Positions 155 through 22,746 of a DNA stretch of 22,746 bases are shown in pieces. Numbering within the stretch: position 1 is the stretch's first letter; each line of letters opens with the position of its first letter. Position numbers and translations under genes: made by a program. The notes below the pieces were generated by a model. It made no database searches. It worked only from the letters and a program-made list of their open reading frames with translations, and was not told where the DNA came from. Origin of the DNA: Polyrhizophydium stewartii (Eukaryota > Chytridiomycota > Chytridiomycetes > Rhizophydiales); contig JADGIZ010000081.1 in assembly GCA_027604665.1 (NCBI GenBank), forward strand, positions 1 through 22,746, given 5' to 3'.

Positions 155-1637
155 CTACTTCCAATTGCGCTGCGATCCCTGCTGAGTGCCGGCACTGCTG
201 CGAGGCTGTGTTGTCTGACTCCATGAAGTCTGACCTGGGCGGTACGTAGGCCCTTGATGCAGGTGGCCCGTCTGATGTGATTGCTGGACCTGACCGGAAC
301 GCTGCTGCGGCGCCACGGAGTGCGATTGCAGAATGGGCAGCTTTTGCTTGGTTGGCCCAGCGCTTTGACGCGGAAACCGTGCAAGGATATAGGGTATGGC
401 GCTCTCGATGTAGCCTTGCCAGATGTGGTACGAATCAAGTAGGTGCTGTGTGATGCAAAGAATATCGCGTATGTCGATGTTGAGCTCCGAGAAAAAGGTT
501 GTCACCACGGCGACCACGGAAGGCTGCTCGTCGCCCACGGCTGGCAGCATGGCCTGCGGCTGGTTGTTGCTGTCCACAATTGCTGCCACAACAAAGATGG
601 CCGAAAGTGCGATCAGATGCGGCGGGTACATGAGCGGAATGTCGGTCTTGTACGTGTCGTTGACAATATACCAGGCAGTTTGAAGACATGGCTTTGTCAA
701 ATTCAACCGTGCCAGAAGCCTTGTGCACAAATCAGCACTCGAGAAGCGCGGCGGGCAGCGCTCGCATTCGAGACGACTTACTGCTGTAGCGGACGATAGG
801 GATGGAACACAATGAGCGAGAACTCGAGCTCCTCGAGAAAGTAGAACTCAAAGTCGGCGATTGTCGCTGCGTCGTATGGGAAAAGGTCGGCTAGTCACCA
901 AGAAATGGGTCAGACTCGGCACAGACACGGCGCTCCGAGGCAAGAGTGCACACCGCCAAGGCAGTTGCGAGACTCGTTGACAACGTTGCGGATGTGGTGC
1001 GGGCATTCCTCGATTTTGCAGGCGACGTAGATGGCGGTGCCTCCCACGAGAAGCGGGTCGATATCGAAATACGCATTCCTGAGGCGCCGAGGGTCACCAT
1101 GCCGCCACCGTCGCCGGGGCCGCAGGAGGCGGTACAGGCAAGGCAGCTGCGTACGCACTTTGCAAAGAAACGCTTCCAGTAAACCAGGGCCGTTCCAATC
1201 ACTTGCTGCCGCACCTGCAGCCGCCGGCATATCTTCTGGATGGCTGCTCGTCGTCGGTCAGCAAGCCGCCGGCGTTGCGCCAACCCCCACCCACCGGCCA
1301 AGGCGCGGCGGCGGACCGTTGGAGTAGTAGAGCGAGACATAGACAGCGTCTTTGCTGGATACAAAGTCCAGCTCACGCTCTCGCGCAGCGGCCAGCACCG
1401 AGCTGTCGAGGATCCACTGGTTCCTGGTGCGCGAGTGCCGGTCGAGCGAGAAAGAGAAGTCGCAGAGGGCGAGCCGCGGCGCTGGTTAGCAGGCTGAGCA
1501 AGGGTCGCGGCGGACTGCTGCGGCCCTCTGCGGCGCTCGGCGGCGCTCGGCGGCGCTCGGCGGCTGTCTGCAGGCCTGCGCGGCCCTCTCGGCGCCAGGA
1601 CGCACACGTGTGTCGAGTCCCAAAAGTTGGACGCCAT
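155..1637 (-). CDS. SSN8: Cyclin C (Mediator CDK8-module cyclin), 6 exons
   Basis: Exons: 1637-1606, 1423-1317, 1243-1159, 1078-954, 890-782, 719-155; 340 residues, all phases consistent. Cyclin C partners CDK8/Ssn3 in the Mediator kinase module in the nucleus. The start MASNFWDSTH, joined to NQWILD, matches the family N-terminus. The cyclin box follows, with LQVRQQVIGTALVYWKRF, then YVACKIEECPHHIRN (residues about 92-106), DFEFYFLEELEF, and NDTYKTDIPLMYPPHLIAL in the second cyclin fold. The tail (about 275-340) is Gln/Ser-rich and probably disordered. The wording is closer to yeast Ssn8 than to animal cyclin C. Its 5' end faces the SOK1/TCP11 gene across 119 bp. The exon border at 1317 (donor GTCCGC) is the least certain; the rest follow conserved residues. 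Identity is secure. Confidence 0.93.
1531..1560. repeat. 10-bp tandem repeat, three copies
   Basis: The unit CGGCGCTCGG occurs three times in a row without mismatch inside cyclin C intron 1 (1424-1605). That makes this intron the longest in the gene (182 bp). No function is apparent. Confidence 0.9.
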
Positions 1638-1756
1638 GCGGCAAACCTCCGGAGGCTGCTTCGGCTGGGTGGCGATGCCGAGCCGCGAGCGGCCTCTCTG
1701 GCGCCCGTCCTCCACGGAGCACGCGAAGCAACCGCAACTTTCACCCCAAGCGCGCG
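1638..1756. promoter_or_regulatory. Bidirectional promoter, cyclin C / SOK1-TCP11
   Basis: Only 119 bp separate the two start codons, which point away from each other, so both promoters and both 5' UTRs must fit here or reach into the flanking first introns. I see no TATA box. Assignment as a promoter is by position only. Confidence 0.6.
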
Positions 1757-4700
1757 ATGCAGCCCGAGCATCCTCAGCGGCAGCAGCAGCCACAGCCATC
1801 GCCGCTGCAGCCTCCATCGCAACAAGCGGCTCATGCCGACGTGCAGCGCATCGACGCGCAGCGCGGTAACCTACAGCAGTCTGGGGCTCCTAACGGTGCG
1901 CCCACGTTTGTGCAACGTGTCAAGGGGTGGCTCGGCCGCCAAGGCTTATGGCGCCGCCTCTACATGGGCAATCGCCTTTGAGATGTGGATACTCGCGACC
2001 TCGCTGCACGATCGCTGACGCGCTTCTCTCTCGCACTGCAGGCGACCCGGTGCAGGTGCACGGGCCGCACTCTTCGCGACTCATCGTCGAGACGGCCGCT
2101 GTGGGGGGCAGAAAGACGGCCGTGGCCGGGATCTACAACCCCGCTCTTCAGCACCACGCTCAGGCCGCAACGCCGTCGCACGGAAGCCTGCGATTGCACG
2201 GATACGCGCAACCCACGGCGCACACAATGGCCGACCCACCGCTCTCGGCCACTTCGTCGACGTCTTCGGCTGGGTCTTCTGGAGCGCCGGGACAAGGCCG
2301 CCCCGCAGCTATTCATTACGCAGCACCAGCGCAGGCTCTCAGTGCCGTGTATGGAGCAACCGCGCCGGCACGCTCGACGGAATCAACCATCTCCAAAGCA
2401 TCAGCCGTGTCGCCTCTCAGACCGGGATCTGGAAGTGAGCTGGACTCAGAGTCGCTCCAGGCGCAGCACGTGAAAAGAATGTCTCCAACTTCGATGGGCT
2501 TTGTCGGCCGAATGATTCTGCGCAAGAAGGGCTCCGTCGCTTTCTTCATTGACCTGCTTAGCCCAGACAGGCCCGCCGCCAAGTCGCCCTCACCAATCCG
2601 CGATCATCTCGAGTCGATGCCGATCGAACCAAAGGACACCAGCCCTCGCAGCATGTGCATGCCGCAAACACCTGCAAGTTCTGCCGCATGCATTGGCAGC
2701 CAGGCCGTCCCGCTGCATGCCGCGCAACATCAGTCTGCAGTACCTGCAGAAAAGGACCAGCCATCAACGCTCGGAATCATCTCGTTCCCGAAAATCCCCC
2801 TTCGCCAGCTCCGTCCGTCACCACAGCAGATCAAGGAGCGCATGACAACTCGTATGATGCGCGCTGCAGCCGCTCGCAGCCAGATCATCCAAGCGCGCAG
2901 AAGCAGGCTGCGACACCACGCCGAGCAGGTCAGCTTCCGCTTGCTCATCCAAAAGCAGCGTGATCGCCTCGACGCGCTCCAGAAACAAGCCAAAACAGAA
3001 TATACCATGACGGCGGCCAACATCAAGAGACAAATGCTGCTTCGTCGCAAGCAGGAGCGTCTTGGTGCTGCCGTAGAGCATGTACACAGCGTCATGCTTA
3101 TGCAAAAGCTGCGAAAGTTTCTCGATCTGCGCAGAGCGTTTTCGGAAAACTTCGCCGACATACTCAAAGATGTCTCTCTGCCGCATGACCCCATCGACAA
3201 CACCAATGAGTCGAAGGATGGTAGCCGTATGGGCGGCTGGCCCGATGGCAACAGCAACAGGCGCAGTGCAGGTGCACACTCTGCGATGAATTCCGGAGCT
3301 GGATATAGCGCGTCAGCGAGATCTCCGCTCATGGCTGGGCTTGCCGTCGATACTTCCGACGAGGTTCACGAGTACACGCAAGACTCGCCCCGCGTCGAGG
3401 GCCCAGGGTCTGGATCGACTGCTGGCCCGCCGTCGACGGTTTCCAGTGGCGCTGAGAAGGACCGCGACTTGGTCCTCTCGCCGGCGCTGATCGAGACCGG
3501 GCTCTCGCCCGTCAAAGCCTCGTCTCGCGGTGAACTGCTTCTTGATGGCGAGGAAAAACGACACCCACCTGGAGCACCGCTGCGCGCAGAATCTGTAGCG
3601 AGCACCATCCGGCGCACAAAATCGATGTCGTCGATGCTTCTCGTTGATGCAGACGACTTTACATACCTGGAGCTTCTGAGCCTCTTGCCCCCAGTGACGC
3701 GCTTCACGCTCCGCGAGCTCGAGCTTGAGGAGATATTGTCCAACACACAGCTTCGGCACGACCTCGTCTTCGACCCCGATCTCCAGTTCAAACCGAACGT
3801 CGAAAACAACCGCGAGGACGAGCGCATTTCCAAAGCGGACGCGTATTGGGATGAAGTCGAGGAGGAGGTGTCGCAAGGCTTCAAGTACCGTATCCCGCTA
3901 CTCCTTGCAGAAGTGCGGGCCATTCTGATTGAGCTTCTTCCAAACGGTCAGGAGATCAAGGAAGAAATCGACGCCAACATTGATATCAAGCTGATTGCGC
4001 AGCAGATTGATCACGGCGTGATGAACCCCCTGGGTTTGATCGAGTACATTGCCGGACTCATGAAAATCAACTGCGCGCCAATACGCGACGAGCTTGTTGA
4101 TTCGATGGTCGCAGCTTGCCGTGACGGGCAGTTTGTCAAGACGCTGCGCATTTGCTTTGATGTGCTCGAGTTGATGAAGTTGGTATGTCGCGCAGCCCGC
4201 AACAACTGGCTGCACTCGCGCACTGGACTGATCGAGCTCTATCGTGCGCGTGGTTTGCAGGACTACGCCAACCATCAGCTGACCCGGCTGCGGCCATACG
4301 TAATCGAGCACGAGGTTGAGCACGAATGGCGCTGGTTCAAGTCGCAGTTTGAGAGTGGCAGCATCACACTGGTCGCAACCAAGGCGTGGCTCAAGCGCGC
4401 GCTCGAGACCAGTGGCCACGGCGGCGTGGCGACGGTCTCGAGAGCAAAAACGCCAGACGCTTCCACCACGGCCGCCGGCTCTGTATCACATGCCACCAAG
4501 CAAGCAGCAACGGCTACGGCGCCGGATCGCGGGTCAGTCGATCTGCTCAGTGACGCATTGCTGCAGCTCATTCTGCAGGCAAACAAATTCGCAAAAGAAG
4601 ACATTGTGCCCGAGACACTGCGCATGGACACAAGCCGGCTGATATCGTACTACAACGACTGGCAGGACATTACAATTCTTGCGTCCCTGCTGGTACTCTT

Positions 4701-5178
4701 CCGACAGGCGGCCGGACCAAGGTGCACTGCCGTGCATCTAGCCGAGGCCAAGAGGAGCCTGTGGGTGCTTCTGAACGACTCGGACACGACCATGTCGCAC
4801 ATTTCGCTTCAGGTAGCCCATACTGCCGGCGAAATCCGCGGAAAGGCCTTCTCGGACCAAGAGAGCAAGATGCTCGAAGCGCTTATGGAGAAGACGCTCG
4901 CGCCTGAGAGCAAGCTCTATGACCTGATCCAAAAGCGTGTTGGCGAAAACCTGCGCGCTGTGATGGAGACGGGCACGGCGGACAAGGACATGCTGGCCAA
5001 GCACGGACTGGCGCAACTGGAGTCTGAGGTTACCGACCTGGCCGCGCGCATCAGCAAGGTCAGCGAGCTCAACCGCGCGGTGTACGGCAAGATGTACGCC
5101 GGGCTCCTTGACGACATCCGCACGGGCGACGATGCATCGTCGCCAAGCGCCGTGTCGGTGATCCGCGACGGGGCATGA
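1757..5178 (+). CDS. T-complex protein 11 / SOK1 family protein, 2 exons
   Basis: Exons 1757-1865 and 2042-5178 give 1081 residues. The intron (1866-2041) has donor GTAACC, a CGCTGAC branch-like site and acceptor TGCAG. The first exon encodes a Gln/Pro-rich start (MQPEHPQRQQQ). Residues about 40-290 are low-complexity and Ser/Pro-rich. Residues about 300-410 are long basic helices rich in Arg, Gln and Leu, likely coiled coil. The TCP11 domain runs from about 630 to 1075; it begins near AYWDEVEEEV and includes LLAEVRAILIELLPNGQEI, MNPLGLIEYIAGLM and CAPIRDELV. Yeast SOK1, the family founder in fungi, suppresses loss of cAMP-dependent protein kinase; the mammalian member acts in sperm. The biochemical activity is unknown. 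An ATG at 1927 would also open a long frame but lies in the intron of this model. Confidence 0.9.
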
Positions 5179-5279
5179 AAGCGGGTCGGATGCAGAGTGC
5201 TCGCGGGCTCCGCTGCGACTCGGACAGAAGACTCTTCGGCAACAAGGGATGCATTTGCGGGAGTGTTGCCGATCGATGT

Positions 5280-5624
5280 TCACTTTTCGTTGGCCTGGCC
5301 GTCGAGGATCTGCTTCCGGAGCTCTGCCTGCGGACGCATGGTCAGCCGGGCAGCCGGTACGGCCAGCGCACCGCAGCATGCGCACCCAGCGTCGTTTGCA
5401 GTCGCGGTAGTCCTGGAACTGCTGCGCACATGCCGTGCGGTACTTGTCCCTGCAGGCGGGCGAGGGCCGTCAACATGAGCGAGCTGGAGGGGCGAGGCTG
5501 CCGCGTTGAAGCCAGAGCCAACGCACCTGTCAAAGTCGTTCTCGTTCATGCAGCGCTTGCTCGCGAGCGCCTGCACCTTGCAGTATGACTCGACGGGCTC
5601 CATCCCAGACTCTGCGTTGCCCAT
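5280..5624 (-). CDS. COX23: COX23/CHCHD7-like twin CX9C protein, 3 exons
   Basis: Exons 5624-5527, 5449-5386 and 5327-5280 give 69 residues. The spliced product has two CX9C motifs: Cys15-Cys25 and Cys40-Cys50. It also has the family signature ASKRCMNENDFDRDKYR, which spans the first intron, then YRDCKRRW. These are hallmarks of COX23/CHCHD7, small intermembrane-space proteins imported by the Mia40 disulfide relay and needed for cytochrome c oxidase assembly. The family is usually 80-150 residues; this copy is short but complete from motif to stop. The ATG at 5624 has a good context (ACCATGG); a second Met is residue 8. The gene faces CFAP141 head-to-head and ends 101 bp from the SOK1/TCP11 stop. 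Confidence 0.9.
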   Translation of the reverse strand: MGNAESGMEPVESYCKVQALASKRCMNENDFDRCVGSGFNAAASPLQLAHVDGPRPPAGTSTARHVRSSSRTTATANDAGCACCGALAVPAARLTMRPQAELRKQILDGQANEK

Positions 5625-6396: not shown

Positions 6397-7423
6397 TCAA
6401 AAAAACTTGACCACCCTTCTGGCCTTGGCGGGACGTGGTTGCGCGCTTGTGCTCGTGCCGTCGTCGTCTTGTGGTGCGCGCTTCTTCTCTGGTGCATGCT
6501 GCTCGCGCTCCATCTTGCGGAACGCAACAAACACATCATCGTCATCACCGCCTTGGGAGAGATCCATGGTTCCAAGGGCCGTGATGCCGGCCTCCTGCTG
6601 CGCCGGCTTGCAGTCGCGCGCGAGATGCCGGACAGACCCACAAAACCTGCAGCTTCCGCCGTTTGGGTACAATCCCTTGTCGTTCTCAGGGCATTGGCCC
6701 GCCAGATGCCCTGTCTGCTTGCAGATGAAGCACTTTGCGAACGGGTAGGGATTGCTTGAGTCGTGCTTCTTGCTGCACTGAGCGAGTGCGTGCTCCAAGG
6801 AGCCGCAGCGGTAGCAGATGCCTGCGCCAGGTGTACCCGCATCAGACTCCATCTCGGCAGCCGCTATCACTTGGTTGCGCGGGCAGGTCCTGATCGAATG
6901 CCCGCGCTGCCGGCACAAGAAGCAGTTCTGCGGCCACTCAATCTGCGTCAGCATAGACGCGGTTCGACTTCTTGGCTGCGCGGTCAAGCCTCACCATCTT
7001 GCGCTCCTTCAGCTTCTCGCGGCGAGACCTCCGCTTGAGGGCCTCGCGCTCTGCGGCCTGCGGTCAGCAACCCACAAACATCCGTCGGCGACGACATCGG
7101 CCGAGCTGCGCACCTGTCTTGCTGAGGGAGCGCTCGGAGCTGGCCTGGGCGACAGGCCCCTCTGCGGGCTCACTGCGCCCATCAAACGGCTTTTGTGCGG
7201 CGGTGCCCTCGCATGCGGTGCTGCCTCGGCTAGCGTCGACGCTCGAGCCGGCACCTTCAGCACGCCCGGCATTGTCTCCAGGGGCATCGCCACGAGCGTC
7301 GGCATCCGCCGCAGCCGCGTGTTTGGAGCGATGGCGCATCTTGCGCTGCTTGCTTGTCTTTCTTGCACTGGCGGGCTCCGGCGCAGCAGCAGCAGCGGGC
7401 GCCTCGTCGCTTTGGCTTCCCAT
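6397..7423 (-). CDS. ZCCHC9: ZCCHC9-like zinc-knuckle protein, 3 exons
   Basis: Exons 7423-7114, 7050-6995 and 6942-6397 give 303 residues. Four CCHC knuckles (C-x2-C-x4-H-x4-C) lie at residues 129-142, 165-178, 193-206 and 220-233. Between them are the family blocks GICYRCGSLEH, PFAKCFICKQTGHL, NDKGLYPNGGSCRFCGSVRH. The protein ends in a basic ARRVVKFF tail, like the VVNF end of animal ZCCHC9. The N-terminal half is Ala/Ser/Lys-rich, followed by a basic helix (REALKRRSRREKLKERK). ZCCHC9 is nucleolar/nuclear and thought to act on RNA in ribosome biogenesis. The second intron is only 52 bp (GTGAGG to ACGCAG); retaining it would bring an in-frame stop. Confidence 0.93.
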
Positions 7424-7707
7424 GCCGTCCCGTCACAACGAAGTTCTTTGAAGAAGGTCAAAGGAGGTTTTTTTTTTTTGAGGGGGGGTATTTCGCATCA
7501 CATCTGGCCCACCCCACCGCCAATCCCCAACCGCACGGACATGAGGATAGTGTTGCGTCCGGCTTAGGAGGCACTGGGTCTAGACGGCCCGTGACTTTGA
7601 CACCAGATGCGTCGCGAAGCTGGTCTGTGGCCAAGGCGCCCAGCCTGGATGTCCAGCTGCTCGTCGATGCGATTAGAATTTTCCCGTTGGTCGACAGAGC
7701 CGCAGAC
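7424..7707. promoter_or_regulatory. Bidirectional promoter ZCCHC9 / LUC7 with poly(dT) tract
   Basis: A gap of 284 bp separates diverging start codons. It contains a run of 12 T (7468-7479) followed after GA by 7 G (7482-7488). Long poly(dA:dT) tracts exclude nucleosomes in fungal promoters, so this is the likely open region (inference). It also contains a nine-codon upstream ORF for LUC7, listed separately. Confidence 0.55.
7541..7567 (+). other. Upstream ORF in the likely LUC7 leader
   Basis: ATG to TAG encodes eight residues, MRIVLRPA, ending 140 bp before the LUC7 start codon. It matters only if transcription begins upstream of 7541, which the sequence cannot show. Confidence 0.3.
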
Positions 7708-9126
7708 ATGGACTACCAGCGGCAGCTCCTCGAGGAGCTCATGAACCCGCTGCTGCCCACGGCCAAGAAGGACTTCCGGGACCAGGACGTCTGCAAGCAC
7801 TTCCTCGTCGAGTTCTGCCCCAACGACATGTTCCTGAACACAAAGGCCGACCTTGGCCGTTGCTTCAACCTGCACGACGAGAAGCTGCAGCGCGAGTGAG
7901 TCGGCACCAGCCCCTCGGCCCTGGCACAGGCGCGGTCCCTCCTTGGCCAGGCTCGGCGCAGTACAACACGCTGCGGCAGAAGAGCTGCCCGACGGCGGCG
8001 GCCGCCTGTCTCGCCGCGTTGAGCTCCCCCCCCCCTCGCCCTGTTCGGCTGCTGTTCGGCTCTGTTCTCTGTCGCATCCCCAACCCCGTCGGCGTCGTCC
8101 CCAGCCGCCCAGACCGCGGACGCTGTCTCACCAGCCCCCTCTTCCGCCTGCTGATGCCCCTGTGCGCGCCGCCGGCAGGTATCACGAGAGCTCTGCCCGC
8201 GGCAGTCTCGGCTACGAGCAGCGCTTCTATGACTATCTTCAGCAGATCGTCGACAACATCGACCGCACGATCCGCAAGGGGCTCATGCGTGTCGAGGCCA
8301 GAGGTCCAAGCAGCCACGACGTGCGCCGTTTGCGCTTGAGACATACCCGCTGCGAGGGCTTCTCGCTGACACAGCTGCGCGTTGCGACGGTCCGCTCGGC
8401 AGAATGGGCCATCGCCGGGCGAAATCCGGGAGCGCATCATCATTGCCGAGGAGACCATCAAGTCTCGAGTTGGGCAGATCCAGCAACTGGCCGAAGCTGG
8501 TCGCGTCAAAGAGGCATTTGATCTCTCGCACTCTTTGGAGCTGACCATGGCCGAGTTGGAGTCGATGCGCCAAAGCGACTCGTCCACAAGAATGGTGCGC
8601 AGTGGGAACGGAATGGAAGTCTGCGAGATCTGCGGTGCGCTGGTCGCAAACGACTCCACCGGTGCACGTGTCGAGGAGCATCTGAGTGGAAAGCAGCACA
8701 ACGGATTCATTAAGATTCGCGCGTCGCTCGAGGCTCGCAAGGTGCAGCCCCTATATGAATGCGCCGCACATGCGATTCTGCTCACTAACTCTCGTGCACC
8801 CACTTCTCCAGAAAGCAATCGCAGCTGGAACCGCGCCAGACCTTGCGCATGGCGGCGCTGGCGGCGCTGGCGGCGCTGGCGGCGGCGGCGGCGGAGGCAG
8901 CGGCAGCGCCGGAGCTCGTGATTACCGTGGTGGCGCCGCCGGCGATCGGGACCGCGGGGATGGCTATCGCGGTGGTCGTGACTACCGTGGCGGCGACCGC
9001 GACTATCGCGGCGGGGACCGTGACTATCGCGGCGGCGGCGGCGGCGGGTACCGTGGTGGTGGTGCTGGCGGCGGCGGCGGGTATCGCGACAACTACAGAC
9101 GTGACGATGGGCACAGGCGGTACTGA
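7708..9126 (+). CDS. LUC7: LUC7-family U1 snRNP protein with glycine-rich tail, 4 exons
   Basis: Exons 7708-7895, 8179-8320, 8403-8741 and 8812-9126 give 327 residues. LUC7 proteins sit on the U1 snRNP and stabilise U1 pairing with the 5' splice site. The first zinc finger (CCCH) uses Cys29, Cys37, Cys52 and His56, with the DLGRC block. Residues about 65-175 form the coiled-coil middle. The second finger uses Cys184, Cys187, His203 and His209 in EVCEICGALV and HLSGKQHNGF. The C-terminus (224-327) is not the usual RS/RE tail but a Gly/Ala run, then DYRGG/RDYRGG repeats and Tyr/Arg. Intron 1 is 283 bp, with a long C run. The intron 2 borders (8321-8402) are the least conserved. The start fits the family because RQLLEELM follows at once. 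Confidence 0.93.
8848..9075 (+). repeat. GGC-rich and YRGG-coding tandem repeats
   Basis: Within LUC7 exon 4, GGC-type codons encode poly-Gly/Ala. Then a roughly 24-bp unit coding for DYRGGDR repeats three times with silent differences (about 8977-9030). The repeats are in frame, so length changes would not break the protein. Confidence 0.85.
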
Positions 9127-9320: not shown

Positions 9321-12300
9321 TCAAACGCCCTTCAACATGACTGGGTCTGGCTTGGTGACGCCGACGGGCGGGATAGAGACCGGCGCGTCCGCCATGACCG
9401 GAATCGTAATAACGGACTCGATCTCGGGTGTATCCGTTTCGGAGTGACGATTTGACGAGGATGTTGGGCCACTCTGCGATGCACGTGCATTTGAAGCCGA
9501 GTTGGGCCTGGTTCCGATCGCGGGAGCTTCTGGCAGGCTGGCCGTGGTCGAGCGCGCTTCCGGGCCGTCGGCGCCGCTCTGCTCGTGCCCGCTGCGGGAA
9601 AAACCACGCTTCACGCTGCGGCCCAGCATGGTGCGTGCAGCAGACAAGTCGCACCAGGGCATGTATGCATCTCGCAGAAGAAAACCGAGTTGCACCGCCC
9701 TTGCGGCGGCGCAGATGACAAAGACTGCAAACACCCCGATGAGCGGGGTGAGATCGTTTGTGCGCGCAACTTCGGCAATCGTGTCGCCGACCCGGGAGAG
9801 GCATGCGCCGTCCCCTCGCATGAGCGTGCACTCGCCCAGTCCAACGAGCGGCAGCCGCAGAGTCACCGACGACGAGACCCAGTAAGTTGGGTTGATATAC
9901 TGCATCCAAGCGATGGCATTGTAGAGCGGTGCGTCACCCTGACGGACCCAGACGCCGCTAGTAAGGATAAAGAGGGCCTGCATGCAGAACGTGGCGCTGC
10001 GTGACTCGGGCCGTGACATCCGCGACGAGTAGATGAGAAGATACATACACACGAATGCGTTGTAGTAGAGCGTCAAAAGTGTGACAATGGTCCCCGTGCG
10101 CTCGAACGAGAGGTCAATGCCTAGCATCAGAATGCCAATCAAACTCGCAAACGCGCCCTCGAGGGTCGCCATGGATGTCTCGTAGACAAAGCGGTGGACG
10201 TAGAAGGCAAGCGGTCGCAGCGTCCCCAATCCCAGATCGTAGTCGTACACGTCGCGATCATCAAAATAGTCGAACGAAATGCTGATGTTCTTGAGCGCGC
10301 TCAGGCCCACACTCGCTTTGCAATGCAACCATCACATGCGAACTTGTCAGTCTCCGCGGCAGCGTTGCTGATATGAAAGGACTCAAAGTCAAGTACTCAC
10401 AGATCAGCAGCCCCTTGACGTGCAGCCCCATACTCGTAAGATCAGATCCCTGACGACGCTCCGCGGCCGTAAGAATCACTGTACCAATGACTGTGATGAG
10501 TGGCATTGTGACCTTGCGCCGCATCGGGCGCTTCTGCCACCAGCGCGCGTTGGCGACAAGAACTTGCATCAGAAAGCTGCGCGTCCGGCCGTATAGGTCC
10601 AAGCGCTGCCAGAGAGACGTGCGCGCTGCTGAGGCGGCGTCAATCTCGCTGTGCTGCTCGTGATGGTCGCCTACGAAGCTTGTGTTGAGGGTTGATGCGC
10701 TCGAGCTGAGCAGCTGGCCGCTGGCCAGCGTGCCGGCGTCCGAGGCTGCGACTGACGCCATGAATCCCGCATCGACGGCACTTGATGCGCCAGCTTCGCT
10801 GCGAAGACGACGAGAGCCGATTGCTAGAGTAGGACCGAAACCCGGTGCCGTGGTGATCGAAGTGCCGCTGACAAACGACGGCGAGGCAAACTGCCGGATG
10901 CTGCGGGTTTTGAGCTGCTCCTTGCGCCACTTGCGTCCGATTGCAGCCGCTTGGCTGACCTCCTCGTCGCTTAGAGCGCCAGCCAGGTCCAGGATAACGT
11001 CCGCCGGATTGTTTTGCACGGCGGAGGATGCGCCAGCAAGGCCGCCGAGCGTCGCCAAGTCGCCAGAAGGCGCACCATGGACCGATGGAAGACTTTCGCT
11101 GGGCGAGGGGGGCGAGAGCACCGATGAAGAGGCGCCCATGTCGACGGTGCTTCCGCTGGCCTTGAGCCTGCTCCCGGAGAGCAATGGCGTGCGCTGCAGC
11201 ATCTCTGCAAACTGAATGCATTCCAGCGGCTCGCCCGTATAGAGGAGACGACCCTTTGCAAGCAGCATAACCTGCGAAAAGAGCGTAAAGATCTCGTAGC
11301 GCGGCTGATGGATCGAGACAAGCACCGTGTAGCCGTGGTCAGAAAGGTGCCCGAGCACCGAAACGAGCTCGAGCGACGCACGCGCGTCAAGCCCCGAGGT
11401 TGGCTCGTCAAGCAAAATCACGCTTGGTTGCTTGAGGATCGCCGTGGCAACCGATAAGCGCTTGAGTTGGCCGCCGGAAAGCGTCTGCTTGTTGAGGAGC
11501 GGATCTTCAATCACAACGTTGGCGCAGCTCTCAAGGTGGAGCAGAGCCAGAATTTCCTTGACACGCTTGGCAATCTCGACCTCGGACGTGCCGGGGGCAA
11601 GCTGCTGCGGGTGTTAGCTGCGCCGCGCGTGACGCCGGTGGTTTACGACATGCTAATGCTCACCACTAAGCGCGCGTGATACATGAGCACCTCGGTTGCC
11701 GTCAAGCCTTGATAGGGCGGGTTGTGCTGGGGCACGTATGCGAGCACCGAGCGCAGGTCTGTGGCGTTGATGCGGAACAGAGGCTTGCCGCCGATATAAA
11801 TGTTCTTTGCGGTCGCGGCATCCTCAAAGCGGCGCGAGATCTGGCAATTGACATGTGAGAAGCACGGTAAACCGGTGGAATCAGTAGACCGCGCCAAGGC
11901 ACATGCGACCTAAGCAAGACGCACCAGCGACATGAGCGTTGTCTTGCCAGCACCGCTGGGCCCGAGAATGGCATTGAGAGACCCAGGCATGCACAAAAAC
12001 GAGATCTTCTTGAGCGTTTGAGTGCCGTTGATTGTGTGGCTGAGGTTGCGGCACTCGATCGACACTGGTGCGGGCTTGCTGGCGTCGTACGCGGGGCCGA
12101 GTATGCTGCGACGCTTGTTCTCCACAGCGGAGAACCCCTTGTCGCCGTCGCTACCTCCAAAGTCGACCTGGTCCGCACTGTTTGCAGGCAATTGCATCGC
12201 ATCAAAGTGCGTCGTGAATCTCCAGTGCATGAGCCGGCCAACCATGAGCAGCAATGCCTGCGACAGCACAATGCCGCCAAGAACAATCCAAACGGTCCAG

Positions 12301-13895
12301 AACACAGCTGGCGGTAGGAAGTACTTGTTCACACCAGGAACGTCGGCGTCCTTGTAGAAGGGCTCAGTCTTGTTGATGACAAAGCAGGAGGCCATGCGTG
12401 GATGCGAGTCGGATAGGATTGGCGAGTAGGGCGACGCTGAAATCGGCGGAAAGCGCATGCTCGGGAGCGGCGACGAAGAAACGCCAATAGCAGGCCACTC
12501 GGGAAGCTTAATCGAGCCATCCGTGGCACCGGATGGCGAGCCTGTGCGGATGAATTGCGAAACAAAGCCACGAAGCGACGATCCTGGCTGCGTACCTGAG
12601 ATGCCGTCGTCGAGCATGAACAAGGAAGCGATGTCGGTTGTGTGGCAAGCGGTACCATCGCACAATTGGCCGTTGGGGTTATCCGCCGGTCCATTCCAGG
12701 GGGCATCCCAGAAGTAGCTGAAAACGCGCGCAGCAGTTTGTGCGGGTGCAGTGGGCGTCGCTGGATTGGCGGCGAGCAGCAGAGCAGGACAGGTAAAGAC
12801 ATAGTCCGACATCAAGTCTACGGTTGCGCCGAACCAGTTGGGAATTGAGCGAGTGGCGTCGCTGCGAGAAAAGATGGCGCGGATATCATCCGGGTTGGCG
12901 GGGAACAGAGAATTGCTGGGCGGGTTGCGTGGCATCAGCAAGTTGGCGGACAAGAGATCCACGAAAACTAGCAGTGGGCTTACACCATGACGTTGTAAAG
13001 GGCCTCGGGGACTGTCAATCCAATGGCATTCTTCACGAGAGCATAAGAATCATTGGACGTGCTTCCAATCATGAGCGAGACGCCCTGCTGCTGAAAAAGA
13101 TTGTTAAGCAAATCGAGTGGATGTGACGGGATGTCGACGCCATCGACTTGATGCACGACGTCAGCATGCACGCGATTGATTGTATCTGGACGCAGCACGT
13201 GCAACTCACTGACTGGAGCCATAGGCTGATCAATCTGCGCCGGGCCAGCTCGCGACCGATGCGCTCGGTCGACAGCACGAAGCAGCTCGGTCGGGGACCT
13301 CGAGCGCATGCAGGAAGAAATTGCGGCAAGCATGTCTTTGGCTGGCAATGAGTCGACGGACGCCTGCGCGCATCCTGCAGCGACCGCAATGTAGGCGATG
13401 TCGTAGACGGCCATTTCAGGAGTACGCAGACTAGAAGAAGGTGCGGACATGATAACTGCCCTCTTGAAGACAGACCTGAAGGCAGGCTTGGTCATGTGCA
13501 AGATAGCCGAAAGTGCTCCAGCCGACTGCCCGAGCAGAGTGATCTTCAAGAAAGGGTCAGTTGAGCTGTTTCTAATGCATACCAAACCTCGGTCTGCAGC
13601 GACACGAACCTGGCTAGGATCTCCGCCAAAAGCCTGGATGTTCTTCAGAGTCCAATTTAGAGCAAGCGCCTGGTCCAGGATGCCCGGATTGGCTGTCCCC
13701 GATCCGGCCAGATCGACTCCGGGGAAGCCAAAGATGGAAAGCCGATAGTTGAAGGTCACGACAAGGGCGTCAATTGCCGGCGCAAGGCTTCGAGCATCAA
13801 AGCCCTCTGCGCCTGATCCGCTCTGTTGTTCCAAGCAGAGCGGTCTTGAGCGTCAGCGGAACGGCGCGGATTCTCAGTTGCGGTGCGAGGCGAGG

Positions 13896-13928
<33 letters not shown>

Positions 13929-14766
13929 GGTGTGACGTTGCGGCGGACAAGTGCCACCATGGATGGACGATCGGACCCATCGCAGACAGGAGAAGCCAAG
14001 AGCAGTTGTGGGATGTGGTCTCGCACCAATCGCCACGAGCCACACACCCCAAACCGTCGAAACCACACGACGGCATGTGGGAGAAGGAGGCTCGACGTGC
14101 ATCCGACAAGCGCTTCAACTCACGAAGCGGAAGCTGCCGCCGTGGATCACCAAGAGCACGGGCTTGAGAGCGGGAGACGAGCCAGTAGGCAAGGTGGCAG
14201 CTTGGAAAGACGAGACGTTGACAAATGGCGTCCAGACGTTGATGTAGAGGCAGTCTTCGGAAACTTTAGGCGGGCACGCCGTTGAAAGTTCGCGGCATGT
14301 CTGTTGGCAGCTACGTATACCGAAGTTTGAGGTCGTGGTGTGGCCGTCAGCGCCGACTCAACGGCTTACCGACGTGGGAAGGTCGAGGTCTGCAATGAGG
14401 CCAACGCCTCGACGAGGGGTCGGCGGCGACGCCAGACAGCGACGCACCTTGGGCGCAGTGCAGACGCATCGAGCGGAGTGGGAAGCGGTGATGCGGCGAC
14501 TGGAGCGGCCCAGCGCGCTGCCGAGGCGTAGGGTATTCCGAGGAAGGCGATGGGCTCGGATGGCGCCGAGCGCTGCGTTGTGATACTGCGGGCGGCGGTC
14601 AGCGCACGGCGTTCAGGCGGCGAGTGCACACGCCTGGGGAGACGCACATGCCGGCGGGTGCCGTGACCGAAATGTTCTGCGCGGCGGCCGGCCCCACGAT
14701 GGCTGCGAGGGCCGCCAGGGCAAGGGCCGCCGCCGTCGTGGTCGCCGCCTTCATCAGGAGCGACAT
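9321..14766 (-). CDS. Carboxylesterase-ABCG transporter fusion, 10 exons
   Basis: Exons: 14766-14648, 14585-14448, 14310-14124, 13822-13610, 13543-13210, 13146-12984, 12915-11925, 11840-11664, 11604-10401, 10315-9321; 1506 residues, all phases consistent. Domains: signal peptide (1-30); type-B carboxylesterase (about 33-560) with FLGIPYA, SEDCLYINVW, oxyanion HGG (142-144), nucleophile Ser226 in GQSAGA, likely acid Asp363 and His476 in CHTTD; one membrane span (about 587-609); ABCG ATPase with Walker A GPSGAGKTT (703-711), Q-loop Gln753, LSGGQ (816-820), Walker B ILLDE (837-841) and H-loop His873; low-complexity linker (about 900-1110); ABC2 membrane domain; Ser/Pro-rich tail. Exon 7 encodes both His476 and Walker A. 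Predicted topology places the esterase outside and the ATPase in the cytosol. Substrate unknown. Adp1-type ABCG proteins also carry a large ectodomain before the ATPase. Exon 1's donor is uncertain. Confidence 0.88.
13897..13927. repeat. (TG)n microsatellite
   Basis: An uninterrupted TG run (CA on the coding strand) inside the 301-bp third intron (13823-14123) of the esterase-ABCG gene. It accounts for part of that intron's extra length and resembles the CA run at the window start. Confidence 0.95.
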
Positions 14767-15132: not shown

Positions 15133-17204
15133 CTATACACGCACCGACGCAACAAAGTTGGCCGCCGTCCTCGCCGGCGGGCGTTTGGCTGCATCCGCGT
15201 GCCAGCACTGCTCCATGATTTTGCGCTTCGCACATGTCAGCCATCGCTTCCCGCATCGCACGTTCATACGAAGCCGGTATCACGCACCAGCGCAGGCGGC
15301 ACGTAAGCGGGGATTTCAGGGCGCCGGTTCTCTATGAGCACTTGCATGCCCACAGCCATTGCATTTGTGCTCTCGTATGGATGCTGCCGAGTGACGATTT
15401 CAAAGAGAAGAATCCCAAACGCAAAGATGTCTGCAGGCCGGGCATCCTCGGTGGGCGAGCCTGCCAAAATCTCGGGTGCAATCCACTGCACGTCGAAAAT
15501 TGCGCGCCGAAATACGTTTCGAGCGCAAAACACACAGGCGGTCATGCCATAGTCGACCAGCCTGATGTTGCCATCGGTCGAGAGCTTTAAAGGAACGTGG
15601 GCGTCAAACTTCTCGTGAATATCTGCATCCCAAAGTGGGCGGGCTGAACTGCGCTGCCAAGAGCGGTTGCTTGTCATGTCTTACCAAGATGTTGTGGCTT
15701 TTCAAGTTCCCATGGATCATTGGGGGCTGGAGGTCGTGCAAGAACGCAAGCGCTTTGATAGTGTCAAAGGCGATCTTGAGCGCATGCGCGGGCGTCATTT
15801 CGACAATGGGGTTGTGCAGAAATGCTGACAGGGTTCCTTGCTCGGTAAACTCGGTCAGCAGGCAGACGTCGGGCGGTATGATGCAGGCGGCCAAAATCGG
15901 CGCGAGAACAGGTTGGCTAATTCGCCTAGTTGTATCTTGGTCAGCTAAGCGGCCTGACGCACACGGGCCAGCGGCACCGTTGGCCTTCTCACCGGATTGC
16001 ATTGATCTCTTTGGTGATTGTCCTGATGTCCTCTTCGCCAAGATCGGACATTAAGACTGGCAACTTGACAGCGACCATCTTCCCTTTCCACATGCCGCGA
16101 TACGTGGTGGCGGTGTGGCTCCGCGCGATCGGATCCAGGATCTGAATTGCCGAGGCCTGCGTGTCCCAGTTGATGGGCGCTGTTGCGGATGAGCGCAGGT
16201 CTGTGACTCGGCGCCTGTGCAGACCAAAAGGCTGCCCGCGGTACCATTTGATTGAAAGATATCCATCGTCTCACGCATTGCCTTGACCTTGGACCGCACT
16301 GGTCGAGAGTCGATAGGACTGCATCAACATGCTGCGCAAACTTGCCAACGCGATGTAATTATACCTTGCGCTTTCCTTGTGATATCTTCCTGATCGCTGG
16401 CCATATCTGCATGAATCAGGGCCTCTCAACCGTCAAGCCTCGTCGGGCTCTATTCAAAAGCACCATTGCCTACCTTTTAGCGTTCCTTGGAGGGTTCCGC
16501 CTGTCTTGTCGATTGGCGTCTTGTCATAAATGTTGGCCGTTCTAATATGCGCACCAGCAGCAGAGGCGAGAAAGACTGCCACATCTATATGCCTCCAAAA
16601 TGCGGCGTAATGTAGCGGTGTGTTTCCGTGGTCATTGGCCTTGCTCACTGCACCCGGCGGTCAGGCCCGTCATGAGGTGCAAATCGAGCTCGCGACCTGC
16701 ATACCATCGGCGTTGATCTGAACCAGCTGCGGGTCATCCACCGTTAGATTGTGTTCGTGATGCCACAGCGCGCCGCATGAGCCTGCGCCCTCACCCGCTT
16801 AATCTGACCCAGATCTCCTCGTTTGGCGGCGAGTATCAGCGCCGTGTCGCCTGCAGCGTTGACAGCATTTACATCGACACCGAGCTGAATGGCGTACTCG
16901 AAGAGCGGGCCGAGGCCTGGGTACGCCCAACGTTTGCAAGAATCAGAAGCCGGAGCTGCTCAGCGCCGTTCTCCCGTAGGCGACGCACCGCGGTGGCACG
17001 CGGTGTGAAGGATCGTGTTGGCATGGAGGTCACTGTGCGCCGGTGCGGACGTCGCCGGCGGGCAATCAGCGCAGGCGTATCTGGGCGTCGTGCGAGGCCA
17101 AGAAGCAGGCCGCATGATTACCGCAAGCCCCTCACGTAGTCCTGACTTTTGTCGTTTGCGAGGCGGCGCAGGGCGTCGAGGTCGCCACGCCGCACGGCCT
17201 CCAT
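15133..17204 (-). CDS. ILK-like ankyrin-repeat pseudokinase, about 10 exons
   Basis: Exons: 17204-17122, 17032-16989, 16916-16795, 16726-16705, 16647-16474, 16298-16275 (tentative), 16200-15993, 15925-15685, 15611-15288, 15225-15133; 444 residues (human ILK 452). ILK is the pseudokinase core of the ILK-PINCH-parvin complex at integrin adhesions. The N-terminal half has ankyrin repeats: NTILHTACHRG, GDTALILAAKRGD and NDHGNTPLHYAAFW, the last nearly identical to an ILK repeat. A short linker precedes the kinase-like domain: MVAVK lysine (202), VLAPILAACI, HGNLKSHN (297-304) where active kinases have HRDxKxxN, VDYGM in place of DFG, WIAPEIL, DIFAFGILLFEIVTRQHP, and a C-terminal CWHADAAKRP. The catalytic Asp is absent and the Gly loop lacks its glycines, so catalysis is unlikely. 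The linker exon is uncertain: a longer exon ending near 16245, or an extra exon, also keeps phase. Confidence 0.85.
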
Positions 17205-17359: not shown

Positions 17360-18270
17360 ATGTCCCTCTCGACCGCCGAAGCTGCCTGCGTCTACGCCGC
17401 ACTCATCCTCCACGACGAGGGCCTCGAGATCACCGTACGTGCACCCACGGATGCATGCAGCCCCGGGCGGATGCGTGCGTGCGCGGCGCCGTCCGTCGGC
17501 GCATCCGCCCATCCATCCATCCATCCATCCGTCCGCCCACCCCCGTCTCGGCGCATCCGCCCGCCGGCGCCGTGCGCTCGAGCATCATCTTTGAGGCCGG
17601 CGGCGTGCAGGCGCTCTTTGGTCACCTCCACCCTCCCCTCCCCGCCTCTCTCTGCTGCTGGCCGTGCCGCCGGCTACGCACAGAGCCCGGCGGGACCCTG
17701 TGGCGAGGTCGTCTGGCGTCGTCGACGCCGTCTCCCACCTCCACCTCTCTCCTGCTCGCCGTTCCTTGCTGCTGGATGCTGACAGCCGAGCTCGCTCCAT
17801 GCGGCCTCCCTCGCTGGTCGCGGCATGCCGATACTCTCTTCCACGCTCTCGTTTGCGACGTCGGGATCCCGCCGGTCTGCGGCCCATTCCAATTGGCCTG
17901 GCTGTCGTGAACATGTCGGCGCACCTTGACTCTGCTGCCGCATCCGCGTGGACGACATCGCTCTCACGACGCCTGATCCCGCGGACGGCTTCTGCACCAA
18001 CAGGCCGACAAGCTCTCGACCCTGATCGCCGCCGCCGGCGTCGAGGTTGAGCCTATCTGGCCCACCATCTTTGCCAAGGCTCTCGCCGGCAAGGACATTG
18101 GCGCCTTCCTCTTCAACGTTGGCGCCGGTGCTGCCCCTGCTGCCGGCGGTGCCGCCCCCGCTGCGGCCGCTGCTGGTGGTGCCGCCCCCGCCGAGGCCGC
18201 CAAGGAGGAGGCCAAGGAGGAGGCCAAGGAGGAGTCCGACGAGGACATGGGCTTCGGTCTCTTCGACTAA
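17360..18270 (+). CDS. RPP1: 60S acidic ribosomal protein P1, 2 exons
   Basis: Exons 17360-17434 and 18004-18270 give 113 residues. P1 pairs with P2 and docks on P0 to form the ribosomal stalk that recruits elongation factors. The N-terminal helical domain ([20 protein letters not shown]) continues after the intron with [20 protein letters not shown] and [13 protein letters not shown]. Then comes the Ala/Gly hinge, [10 protein letters not shown] repeats and the conserved stalk tail [13 protein letters not shown]1 rather than P2 is judged from the VEVEPIWP block. The splice point after LEIT matches a conserved position. The single intron is 569 bp, far longer than its neighbours. Confidence 0.97.
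17435..18003 (+). other. Unusually long intron of the P1 gene
   Basis: At 569 bp this is several times the typical intron of the window. It starts GTACGT and ends ACCAACAG. It is C-rich and carries an ATCC tetranucleotide repeat (17511-17530) and many CTC/CCT runs. I looked for C/D snoRNA boxes (TGATGA with CTGA) and found none. Open frames within are compositionally biased. Function unknown. Confidence 0.75.
17511..17530. repeat. (ATCC)5 tetranucleotide repeat
   Basis: Five perfect ATCC units with degenerate GTCC/GCCC flanks inside the P1 intron. Confidence 0.95.
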
Positions 18271-18457: not shown

Positions 18458-21193
18458 ATGGACGAGTTTGGGCGCCGCGACAGCTTTGGCCGCGACGACA
18501 GGCGTCGCCCGTCCAAGCGCGACCGCAGCCCCGAGGGTGCGCCGCGCCTTTCCCCTTGCGTCGCCCCTTGTTGTGCGCACCTCGGCGCTGGGCGTTGGCC
18601 CCAGCGCCCCGCGCCCCGCAGCCCTCCTCTGGCGGAATGTGCTGATGTTGCCGTCCCTTGCCCGCCAGATTCTGGGGCTCCAAAGCGCTCGAGGCGCTCG
18701 CAGTCGCCGCCCCGCTCGAGGCCGGACAGCGACCGCCGCTCGGAGCCACGGTGCGTGTGCCCCTCATGGCGGCTCAGCCCCTGCGAGCCTGAGCTGCTTG
18801 TGCTGCGCTCTTGCCCTCGTTGACGCCGAACGAACTCGCTGCTCTGCAGAGTCGATCCACTCAAGCTCGACTACCTCGTCTCACCGCAGCAGTTTGCCGA
18901 CTTCCACCGCGAGTCCGCCTCGCGCAAGGGCCGTGCGGGCGGCGAGTCCAAAGAGGAGCTCGAGCAGCGCTATGAGGCGTATCGCGACTCTTATGTTCGT
19001 CGTCAGTATGAAAAGTTTTACAGGACGCACAAGGACGACGAGTGGTGCGTACATCGGACTGCCCGCCACGCTGTAACGCTTGCTGCGAGGCCATCTGCAG
19101 GCGTCTTCTGACGCACATGTCTGATGGCTCCTCTGCATCCCCAGGTTCAAGGAGAAATACGAGCCGCGAGCCGCCGCTGCCTTCAAAAAAACGCTCGAGC
19201 CCATCCGCACCGACCTTCAGAGTGCCTTTGTCTCGCTGCTCAAGGACGGCAAGCTTGACGGGATCTCCTACGACGAGCAAGCCCAACCATCAGCTTCTTC
19301 GGACGCAGATGAAAAGGTGGATTTGGCCGGTCCACATGAGCAGCAGTCCGAGGCCGAGCTGCGCGAGGACGCCGACTCGGAAGCTGTGGCCGACGTGCCT
19401 GCGAAGCCCGAGGCGCCGAAAGCAGAGGATGGCGATGCGGGCGGCGAGACCTTGGCGAACGTAGTCGCCGGCCCGGCTGCGGCTGCCTTTGCTGCGCTCG
19501 CGACGATCAACAGCCGCTGGCGCTCGCTGTTTATCAAGAACGTGCTGCTTACGACCAAACGCTCCGACCTGATTGAGGTGGGCTTGGCCGTTCCTCGCCG
19601 GTGCGCGAAGCCATTGTCTCGCATCTTTCTGACGCCTTACATATTGCTGGAGCGCAGGTCTGCCAAAAGATTCCCGGGTTCAAGTTTGTTGTCCTCTCGG
19701 ACCCACGTGTCGACAAGAAGATGACTCGCATCGGCTGGATTGTCTTTGACGACACCGTCGACTTGCAGACGGCTCTCGAGCAGCTCGACAACCAGCCCGT
19801 CGGTGAGCAAGTGCTCAACTTGCTGATCCACCAAAAGTCTGCCGATCGCATCATGACTCTGTCGGCGGAGATGTCGCAGCCTTCGCGGCTGCTGCACGAC
19901 TACGAGCAGGCTCGGACGCTGGCCAAGCATCTCGATGCAGAGTTTGGGTTCAGTCCCGACAGCGGCCTTGCTGCCGTTGACGCATATATGGACGAGCGCT
20001 TTGGCATGTTTGAGTCGCCCACAGGGGCTGACGGACCCAAGGCCGACCACATGAGCGCAGGGGCTGGTGTAAACGAGAGCAATGGCAAGTCGGCAGACGA
20101 AAGCAGCGACAAGCCGGCACTCGACGATGCGCAGCTCGAAGCGCTCAAGCGGCGCCTCGATATACTGCTTGCGTACCTGTCCCACGTGCACAGCTACGGA
20201 TACTACAGTGGCATTGAGAGTCCTGCGCCGCAAGACTACGAGCGGCGCGCCAACCCGTTTTTCCGCAAGGCTGTCGCGACGCCCTTGACTGCTCAGCAGC
20301 AGCAGCAGCATGCGCAACAGCAGCAGCAAGCTGCGCTTGCGTCGGCAGCCGCGTGGATCCCGCTCACGGGCAGCCGAGACCCCTTTCCCGTGCGCGTGGA
20401 CCGCCGCGTGCAGCTGCGCATGTCCAGGCCAATGAGCGGCGCGCTGCTCGAGTCGCTGGGTGGAAAGCCCCTGGACGAGATTGTCGAACGGTTTCTGGAG
20501 GAGAACATTTCCAAAGAGTCGGATAGCAAGTTCCGATGCCAGCTCTGCAAAAAGCTGTTCAAGGGGGACGACTATGCTCGCAAGCATATCCGTGGCAAGC
20601 ACCCAGAGCTTGTAGAAGCAATCGAGTCTGAGACTCGGACTCTCAACAACTTTGTTCTCGATCCAAGCAAGCCCGACCCCGTGCGCGGCGCACTCGTCGG
20701 CATGGCCCCTCAGTACGGAGGCAGCGCCTCGCACGCCGCGAATTCAACTGCAGCACACGGCCGTGACCGGGACCGTGATCGAGAGCGGGACTACGATCGC
20801 GAGCGTGCCTACGATCGCGAGCGCAGCTACGACCGGGGCGATCGCGACTATGAACGCGATCGTGAGCGCGACCGCGGCGACCGCGAGCGCGAGCGCGAGC
20901 GTGAACGTGACCGCGAGCGCGATCGTGAACGCGACCGCGAGCGCGACGACAAGAGAGACTACGGCCGTGCTTACGACTATCCCCGCGACGAGTTTGGGCG
21001 GCGCTCGGACTTTGGCCGAGGCTATGGCGACTACGGCCGCGAGCTTGGCCGCAGCTACGGTGGCGGCCGCCGTGACCAGCGAGGCCCGCCGCCCCCGCCG
21101 CCCAGCGGCCGTCGTCCAGACCCCCGTCAGATCCGCAGCTACCATGACCTGGATGCGCCGATTGGAGGTGACATTGAGCTCCGCTATGATTGA
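18458..21193 (+). CDS. SRRT: ARS2/SERRATE (SRRT) homolog, 5 exons
   Basis: Exons 18458-18536, 18669-18750, 18850-19044, 19145-19577 and 19658-21193 give 774 residues. ARS2 binds the nuclear cap-binding complex and steers capped RNAs toward processing, export or decay. The N-terminus is Arg/Ser/Asp-rich (MDEFGRRDSFGR). The conserved N-terminal unit contains QRYEAYRDSYVRRQYEKFY and HKDDEWFKEKYEPR. An acidic Ala-rich stretch follows, then KRSDLIEVCQKIPGFKF and GWIVFDD of the RRM-like part. A zinc finger (about 554-577) has RCQLCKKLFKG and ARKHIRGKHPE. Residues about 631-700 are nearly pure Arg/Asp/Glu dipeptides. The end (RSYHDLDAP) matches the family C-terminus (YRDLDAP). Intron 4 (19578-19657) is supported because splicing creates the LIEVCQKIPGF block. 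Confidence 0.94.
20759..20955 (+). repeat. RD/RE-coding low-complexity tract
   Basis: In ARS2 exon 5, alternating CGC/CGT/CGA and GAC/GAG codons encode Arg-Asp/Arg-Glu dipeptides with periodic Tyr. Codon choice varies along the tract, so selection on the protein rather than recent DNA slippage probably maintains it. RD/RE tracts are known in splicing-linked proteins. Confidence 0.9.
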
Positions 21194-21253: not shown

Positions 21254-22193
21254 TTATATTTCGCGGTCAATGACGCCGCGGAGTGCCTTTGGCGGCGCTG
21301 GACTGCGCCGAGGTCCCGTCTTGAGAGTTGCGCGATACAGATAAAGGCTGTCCAGGCGGTACTGCTCGCGATCCGGGTGGTCCATGATCTCGTGAACATC
21401 AAAGTACTTTACGAGACGCAGCCAAAAACGCTTGTCGGCCTTTCGCCGCTTCTTGTAAGATATCCAGATTTCTGTTGATGGCGACGCAAGCTCCCGCAGG
21501 GTTGAAATGAGCGGGTCAAAGAGCGACTCGAGGTACGTACAATCGGCGGCGAGGATCAGATCGAGCGGCAGCAGGCTCTTGACTTTGTCGGAGAGCGGCT
21601 CGCCCCTATGTGTGCAAACGTGTCAGAATTGGGGAGTTGGTTTTGGGGGGAAGGGGGAAGTTGGCTCACCAGCAGCACGCCGTGACAGAAAGCTGCGCTT
21701 TCTCGGATGCAGTGAGGTTGACGTCGGCGTTTAGCTGCATGAGGGGCACGAACAACTCGAGATCCGAGACCGCGACGTGCTGGTCTGCGGGAGGCTCGAC
21801 CGCAGCAACCAGGCCAACGAGGCCGGTGCCGGAGCCGAGCTCAAAGATTCGCGAGTACGGAAACGTGCCGGCGACGCGGCGGTGCGAGATATAGTTGGAC
21901 AGCACCGTGGCCGCCGGCCATGCCTTTCCGCCGCAGCCGCCTTGCGTGTCCTCGTGGATGGTGATGGTGCGGGCAGCCGCCTCGTCGGCTCGTGCATTCG
22001 CCAGCTCGCCAGCGCCGGCACCGGCGCCGAGGCGCACCGCGGCATGGCGCACCGGGTGCTGGTGGAGCGTGCCGACGTGGATGGCCTCCTGCTCGGGGAT
22101 CAGGTCGCCGTCGGCCACATAGCTCTCTGCGTCGCTGAACGAGAGCTCGCTCGAGTCGCTGTCGCGGCGGAAGAAGTCGTCGAGCAGCGGCAT
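21254..22193 (-). CDS. METTL21-like (Methyltransf_16) protein methyltransferase, 2 exons
   Basis: Exons 22193-21670 and 21605-21254 give 291 residues. This is a seven-beta-strand, SAM-dependent methyltransferase of the METTL21/EFM class, which methylates lysines on translation factors or chaperones. Visible motifs: KAWPAATVLSNYI (about 90-102), motif I FELGSGTGLVG (117-127), post-I VSDLE, and TACCWGEPL across the splice junction (family LxWG). The second exon has LDLILAADCTYLESLFDPLI and the late block ISYKKRRKADKRFW typical of the clade. The N-terminal acidic segment (DSDSSELSFSDAES) is not conserved. The exact substrate cannot be read from the sequence. It ends 60 bp from the ARS2 stop, tail-to-tail. 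Confidence 0.9.

Positions 22194-22746
<553 letters not shown>

Follow-up and report, generated by a model that had tools for sequence, protein, structure and literature searches.

A type-B carboxylesterase fused to an ABCG-type transporter in Polyrhizophydium stewartii and other chytrids

We analyze a window of 22,746 nucleotides, namely contig JADGIZ010000081.1 (C81 in our numbering) of the 12.86-Mb, 690-contig assembly GCA_027604665.1 of Polyrhizophydium stewartii (Chytridiomycota, Rhizophydiales). Between positions 14766 and 9321 of its minus strand lies a gene whose product combines, in this order, a signal-peptide-like start, a type-B carboxylesterase, one membrane span, an ATP-binding cassette (ABC) ATPase and an ABC-2 membrane domain. 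An earlier note, made from the sequence of this DNA, had proposed the same architecture for an ABCG transporter, and Pfam matches, hydropathy and the other members of the family bear it out. As the same architecture recurs in 13 chytrid genera, the fusion represents a family and not a single-gene oddity. What the two joined activities accomplish can be stated with less confidence, and we weigh export, uptake and simple tethering below.

The fusion gene and its join exon

The coding span comprises 10 exons on the minus strand (14766-14648, 14585-14448, 14310-14124, 13822-13610, 13543-13210, 13146-12984, 12915-11925, 11840-11664, 11604-10401 and 10315-9321), separated by nine introns that are all GT-AG. 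Its 1506-residue product matches the last 1506 residues of the public model HK105_200295 (P0001) letter for letter, and the spliced model confirms the start (14766), the end (9321) and the join exon (12915-11925) given in the earlier note. A 9-exon model of 1533 residues was rejected, as comparison with P0001 showed that a 63-base intron in exon 5 and a piece of intron 1 had been left in. The ATPase tree, esterase tree, family alignment, pairwise identities, motif counts, hydropathy and profile alignment to acetylcholinesterase used this 1533-residue version or alignments containing it; the correction leaves the parts concerned untouched, and the longer numbering exceeds that used here by 6 after residue 39 and by 27 after residue 336 (S232, D390 and H503 are S226, D363 and H476). 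A variant of exon 2 that retains extra sequence (1560 letters including the stop) was dropped because it is absent from P0001 and from the paralog described below. Intron 3 (14123-13823) contains a CA/TG dinucleotide repeat at about 13897-13927.

Domain limits on the 1506-residue model were transferred from the Pfam matches of P0001. The signal-peptide-like start, a hydrophobic run, occupies codons 1-29 (14766-14680). The COesterase domain (PF00135) covers residues 50-529 across several exons (14557-12483) and scores 239.1 bits on the 1533-residue model, against a cut-off of 27, and 252.2 bits on residues 525-1004 of P0001. The membrane span between esterase and ATPase, at about residues 586-612 (12314-12234), is the top hydropathy peak of the family average (2.35); like the signal-like start, it is identified from hydropathy. 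The ABC_tran domain (residues 686-844, 12014-11395, across introns; PF00005, 89.2 bits on the 1533-residue model and 88.8 on P0001) includes Walker A at residues 703-710 (11963-11940), and lies ahead of the ABC2_membrane domain (residues 1144-1326, 10497-9864, across one intron; PF01061, 38 and 37.5 bits), which is the ABCG order. All three Pfam matches are above their cut-offs.

Exon 7, the join exon (12915-11925, codons 385-715), carries the end of the esterase with its CHTTD motif (residues 475-479), the membrane span and Walker A in a single open frame, just as the earlier note had claimed. Contig C440 of this genome carries another full-length fusion gene (177-5312, L031), whose 1540-residue product is 40% identical to that of the window gene and has Glu at the position of the catalytic acid; the public record P0006 covers only its rear 1165 residues. 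In this paralog the join likewise falls within one exon (1500-2628). Five introns of the two genes agree in position and phase, including both that flank the join exon, and a sixth lies one alignment column off. Over an alignment of 20 relatives, from which P0001, P0002, P0005 and P0006 were left out as duplicate or alternative models, Pfam finds ABC_tran in 20, ABC2_membrane in 20 and COesterase in 19. The Fimicolochytrium record, which has the ABC part and only an esterase tail, is the sole row without residues over the esterase motifs.

We therefore regard it as virtually certain that the fusion is genuine. The earlier note had named an assembly join within exon 12915-11925 as something that would overturn its claim, and the counterpart exon on C440 together with the independent genomes rules this out. 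Merged models do occur among the records (P0001 has an ankyrin-kinase part and P0200 a ubiquitin domain), but the chance that assembly or gene prediction joined two adjacent genes here is negligible, since the join lies inside one open frame, the paralog shares the join exon with matching flanking introns, and independent genomes have the same architecture.

The ankyrin-kinase part of P0001 (its residues 1-475) corresponds to an ankyrin-repeat protein kinase gene upstream of the fusion gene on the minus strand. Because the kinase frame reaches a stop at 15133, shortly past its last conserved motif, and because the signal-like start would sit internally in the longer product, HK105_200295 looks like two genes merged, kinase and fusion. 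The public model P0200 (Boothiomyces sp. JEL0866), with a ubiquitin-family domain (PF00240) besides the fusion domains, is probably another merged model. Other frames of the window with Pfam matches lie at 1894-5178 (plus), 6397-6990 (minus), 7234-7899 (plus), 17977-18270 (plus), 19577-21193 (plus) and 21666-22394 (minus), and belong to the Tcp11, zinc knuckle, LUC7, acidic ribosomal protein, ARS2 and lysine methyltransferase families.

Taxonomic spread and origin of the family

The earlier note had proposed a database search for the three-domain architecture and its taxonomic spread, and protein searches place the fusion in 13 chytrid genera, Polyrhizophydium included, across several chytrid orders. 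The other members come from Homolaphlyctis (a genus read from the JGI code Hompol1), Batrachochytrium salamandrivorans, two Boothiomyces, Gorgonomyces, Spizellomyces, Powellomyces, two Geranomyces species, Thoreauomyces, Gaertneriomyces, Rhizophlyctis, Blyttiomyces (a record that starts within the esterase) and Quaeritorhiza, which like Polyrhizophydium has two copies. Five of the 13 genera were confirmed as Chytridiomycota by taxonomy look-up; the remainder we take to be chytrids as well. The two Quaeritorhiza haematococci records, P0094 (HK102_009774) and P0095 (HK102_009773), carry consecutive numbers and stem from contigs both given as 18922 long, so the genes are probably neighbours. By Pfam matches, COesterase and ABC_tran occur together in 19 of the 306 proteins listed (P0001-P0005, P0087-P0096, P0200-P0202 and P0223), 18 of which bear chytrid names (P0003 through its JGI code). 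As each protein search scored about 8000 candidates with lengths of 0.55-1.75 times the query, with the best 120 of 157 and the best 120 of 730 listed, the apparent restriction of the fusion to chytrids is no more than suggestive. Among the proteins seen, P0183 (1377 residues; sources JGI and ENA) combines COesterase with PF03176, of the MMPL transporter family, and is perhaps another esterase-transporter fusion; P0243 (Mortierella claussenii, 2329 residues) combines a subtilisin-type peptidase (PF00082, PF01483) with ABCG domains and is either a protease-ABCG fusion or a merged gene model.

Phylogenies of the two halves are consistent with a common origin. For the ATPase domain, 60 rows were hand-picked from the ATPase-domain matches (422 listed, not counting two spliced proteins added later). 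All 18 fusion rows group in a single clade (support 98/94), which includes neither the Adp1-like protein of the Polyrhizophydium genome nor the YOL075C-like proteins, names that we assigned from sequence and length. In the esterase tree (76 rows), 15 fusion rows likewise form one clade, with a value of 99 in the Shimodaira-Hasegawa-like approximate likelihood ratio test. This second tree omitted P0001, P0002, P0005, P0006, P0089, P0093, P0198, P0199 and P0202; the other 60 rows in it were the long proteins with the best scores, and ordinary-sized stand-alone esterases are largely missing from it. Both trees are unrooted, and "clade" assumes a root outside the fusions. Since the ABC parts and the esterase parts each form one clade, the trees fit one old fusion event. 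Pairwise identities of the two halves co-vary (r 0.91 over 136 pairs from 17 of the 20 rows, with kinship not corrected for). With the family ATPase profile, complete fusion domains score at least 298 bits, and none of the other proteins examined exceeds 214; the incomplete fusion records P0096 and P0093 reach 222 and 204 bits.

The nearest relatives of the ABC part are less clearly placed. In approximately unbiased tests, trees that group the fusions with the one Adp1-like protein of the genome (p 0.18) or with the YOL075C group (p 0.19) were not rejected. In the ABC tree Gaertneriomyces, a relative of Spizellomyces, branches outside the remaining fusions, and in the esterase tree it attaches at an unresolved basal node, a misfit with simple vertical descent behind which an old duplication or a long branch may lie. 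Other ABCG genes of the Polyrhizophydium genome lie at 2734-5418 of contig C145 (L034) and at 5064-1366 of contig C652 (L035); by reading, one is Adp1-like and one is a full-size YOL075C-like gene.

Among described transporters, Adp1 is close in plan. According to passages of a fungal ABC transporter survey (PMC2848647), Adp1 (ABC-G Group VII) is half-size and has the same order of ectodomain, span, ABC ATPase and membrane domain, but its ectodomain has epidermal growth factor (EGF) repeats, whereas that of the fusion is a COesterase, and the fusion ATPase domains lie in a separate clade. No EGF family appears among the 13 Pfam rows of the fusion protein up to E 0.1. As a precedent, which is how the earlier note had cited it, Adp1 thus holds for the order of parts, but not for the ectodomain, and our tree does not group the fusion with it, with the non-rejection given above. 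The commonest non-fused matches of the ABC part look, by reading, like YOL075C (ABC-G Group VI in the same passages of PMC2848647) and share the ABC-G ATPase and membrane domain; these proteins are mostly full-size, lack an ectodomain and form a separate clade, whereas the fusion is half-size with an ectodomain. The survey includes Spizellomyces punctatus and Batrachochytrium dendrobatidis, and assigns ABC-G proteins of the latter to the Adp1 and YOL075C groups; the word "esterase" is absent from its main text, the part covered here (PMC2848647).

Catalytic and transport residues

The esterase half retains the residues expected of a type-B carboxylesterase: a GxSxG motif, serine, acid and histidine positions, and the oxyanion Gly-Gly, with Asp as the acid in the window copy. 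Ser226, within GQSAG (codon at 13525-13523), is Ser in all 17 rows with residues there, His476, within CHTTD (12644-12642), is His in 19 of 19, and the oxyanion Gly-Gly is present in 17 of 17 covered rows. The acid position is Asp363 (13051-13049), where relatives have Glu. When a profile of four esterase parts was aligned to acetylcholinesterase, Ser, acid and His fell on the positions that we take to be catalytic in that enzyme. Both oxyanion glycines, the Ser and the His are among the 38 invariant columns of the 440 esterase columns with at least 15 residues. The structure model matches the pNB esterase fold in this part. Acetylcholinesterase, pNB esterase and bile-salt-activated lipase share fold, GxSxG and catalytic residues with the fusion esterases, which, unlike those enzymes, are joined to a transporter and form a clade of their own among the 76 rows. 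On these residues, the esterase is very probably active across the family. Two further contigs of the genome were considered for fusion-type esterases and set aside: C253 was read as encoding another alpha/beta hydrolase, and C680 holds only the 3' part of a stand-alone esterase, with no ABC match on either contig.

On the transporter side, the covered rows of the 20-row alignment retain Walker A (19 of 19), DEPTSG (19 of 19), the H-loop His (20 of 20), SGGQ (17 of 19) and the Q-loop Gln (18 of 20). ABCG proteins typically have six membrane helices and a cysteine-bearing loop ahead of the last helix. Two loop cysteines are kept in all 20 rows, and the hydropathy peaks and the helices of a moderate-confidence structure model are compatible with six spans. 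The rear of this model matches ABCG25, ABCG2 and ABCG1 and has the ABCG fold. With a signal-like start and one span, and if the usual rules hold, the esterase would lie outside and the ATPase inside, so the topology that the earlier note had called sensible is supported on hydropathy. In the 20 rows only 25-35 residues separate the last Cys column of the esterase (gapped in Gorgonomyces) from the point of highest hydropathy in the span, which would hold the esterase near the membrane.

What the fusion may do

Most likely, the gene product is a catalytically active ecto-esterase positioned where a half-size ABCG transporter opens. A type-B carboxylesterase would sit on the outer membrane face, tethered to the transporter by one span, and since half-size ABCG proteins must pair, dimerization would bring two esterase domains over the exit. 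The pump might carry out of the cell a hydrophobic ester, such as a lipid, a sterol ester or a secondary metabolite, which the esterase would cleave on arrival, so that the product is released or activated and its return prevented. We put the odds of an active ecto-esterase on a functioning pump, export being the reading that we prefer, at about even. The sequence of events itself, export followed by hydrolysis, we favor tentatively and at a little under even confidence, ahead of hydrolysis before uptake and then of tethering. Coupling between hydrolysis and transport is plausible because the catalytic residues are conserved and the ATPase residues mostly intact. A stricter version, a chytrid transporter class with mechanical coupling, is doubtful on present evidence; in it, every substrate would be passed to the ecto-esterases by the ATP cycle, and a lipid or signal ester would be secreted and activated in a single vectorial step.

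Several observations weigh against this picture. The catalytic acid is Glu in 17 of 18 covered rows and the exception is the window copy with Asp363. In Gaertneriomyces the oxyanion-loop His is missing (PGGTF), and the two Quaeritorhiza copies show SAGQ instead of SGGQ and no Q-loop Gln. A clear signal-like start is seen in 9 of 20 rows, the others being mostly records that begin late. The structure model has a mean predicted local distance difference test score of 69.8 and a predicted template modelling score of 0.47, and its ABC part superposes only at a root-mean-square deviation of 17-19, so the position of the esterase over the pore cannot be read from it.

The main rival is scavenging, in which the ecto-esterase cleaves sterol or fatty esters outside the cell and the ABCG part imports the freed product. 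Most characterised eukaryotic ABCG proteins export, and nothing in the sequence points to uptake, so we think this rather unlikely; it does gain from cholesterol esterase and bile-salt-activated lipase being among the solved relatives of the esterase part, and from the yeast ABC-G proteins Pdr11 and Aus1, which passages of PMC2848647 describe as needed for sterol uptake. Less probable still is that the transporter half merely anchors and sorts the esterase, with the two activities uncoupled. The variant ATPase motifs of the Quaeritorhiza copies would suit such a role, but nearly every row keeps the motifs, and all 20 keep the pair of loop cysteines; anchoring would need only the lone span, and that the transporter is conserved in full suggests that it is functional. 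Lastly, the esterase could be a non-catalytic binding module, as the COesterase folds of neuroligin and thyroglobulin are, either family-wide or in the window copy alone. Asp363 speaks for this, and its presence in both public records of the gene shows that more than an error in this one assembly would be needed to account for it; yet Asp may in principle still serve as the acid, and with Ser in 17 of 17, His in 19 of 19 and Glu in 17 of 18 rows we consider a binding role very improbable.

Hydrolysis joined to ABC transport has partial parallels elsewhere. Dictyostelium TagA, TagB and TagC are likewise hydrolases fused to ABC transporters, and passages of PMC4334915 describe TagB and TagC as processing secreted peptide precursors. 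The Tag proteins join a serine protease to an ABCB transporter (PMC4334915), whereas the chytrid proteins join a carboxylesterase to an ABCG transporter; the 13 Pfam rows of the fusion protein include no peptidase family and no ABC_membrane family. In Comatose, according to the abstract of PMC6642094, ester-type hydrolysis is tied to the ABC cycle, in that an intrinsic thioesterase activity needs a working ATPase; Comatose is a plant peroxisomal full-length transporter without a separate hydrolase domain, whereas the fusion has one. Hydrolase-ABC fusions are thus already known from the Tag proteins (PMC4334915). For the carboxylesterase-ABCG combination, a search of 5.39 million open papers turned up no description in titles, abstracts and consulted passages, with subscription papers and preprints outside the search. 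The earlier note's statement that no characterised protein has this architecture stands in that no description turned up in the open literature, but such proteins were already in public databases, unnamed or generically named, from 13 chytrid genera.

In an enzyme-transporter fusion, the gene itself ties a reaction to a transport step. The family offers a handle on the substrates of ABCG transporters in early-diverging fungi, and because both activities would reside in one polypeptide, separate mutations could probe whether hydrolysis and transport are coupled.

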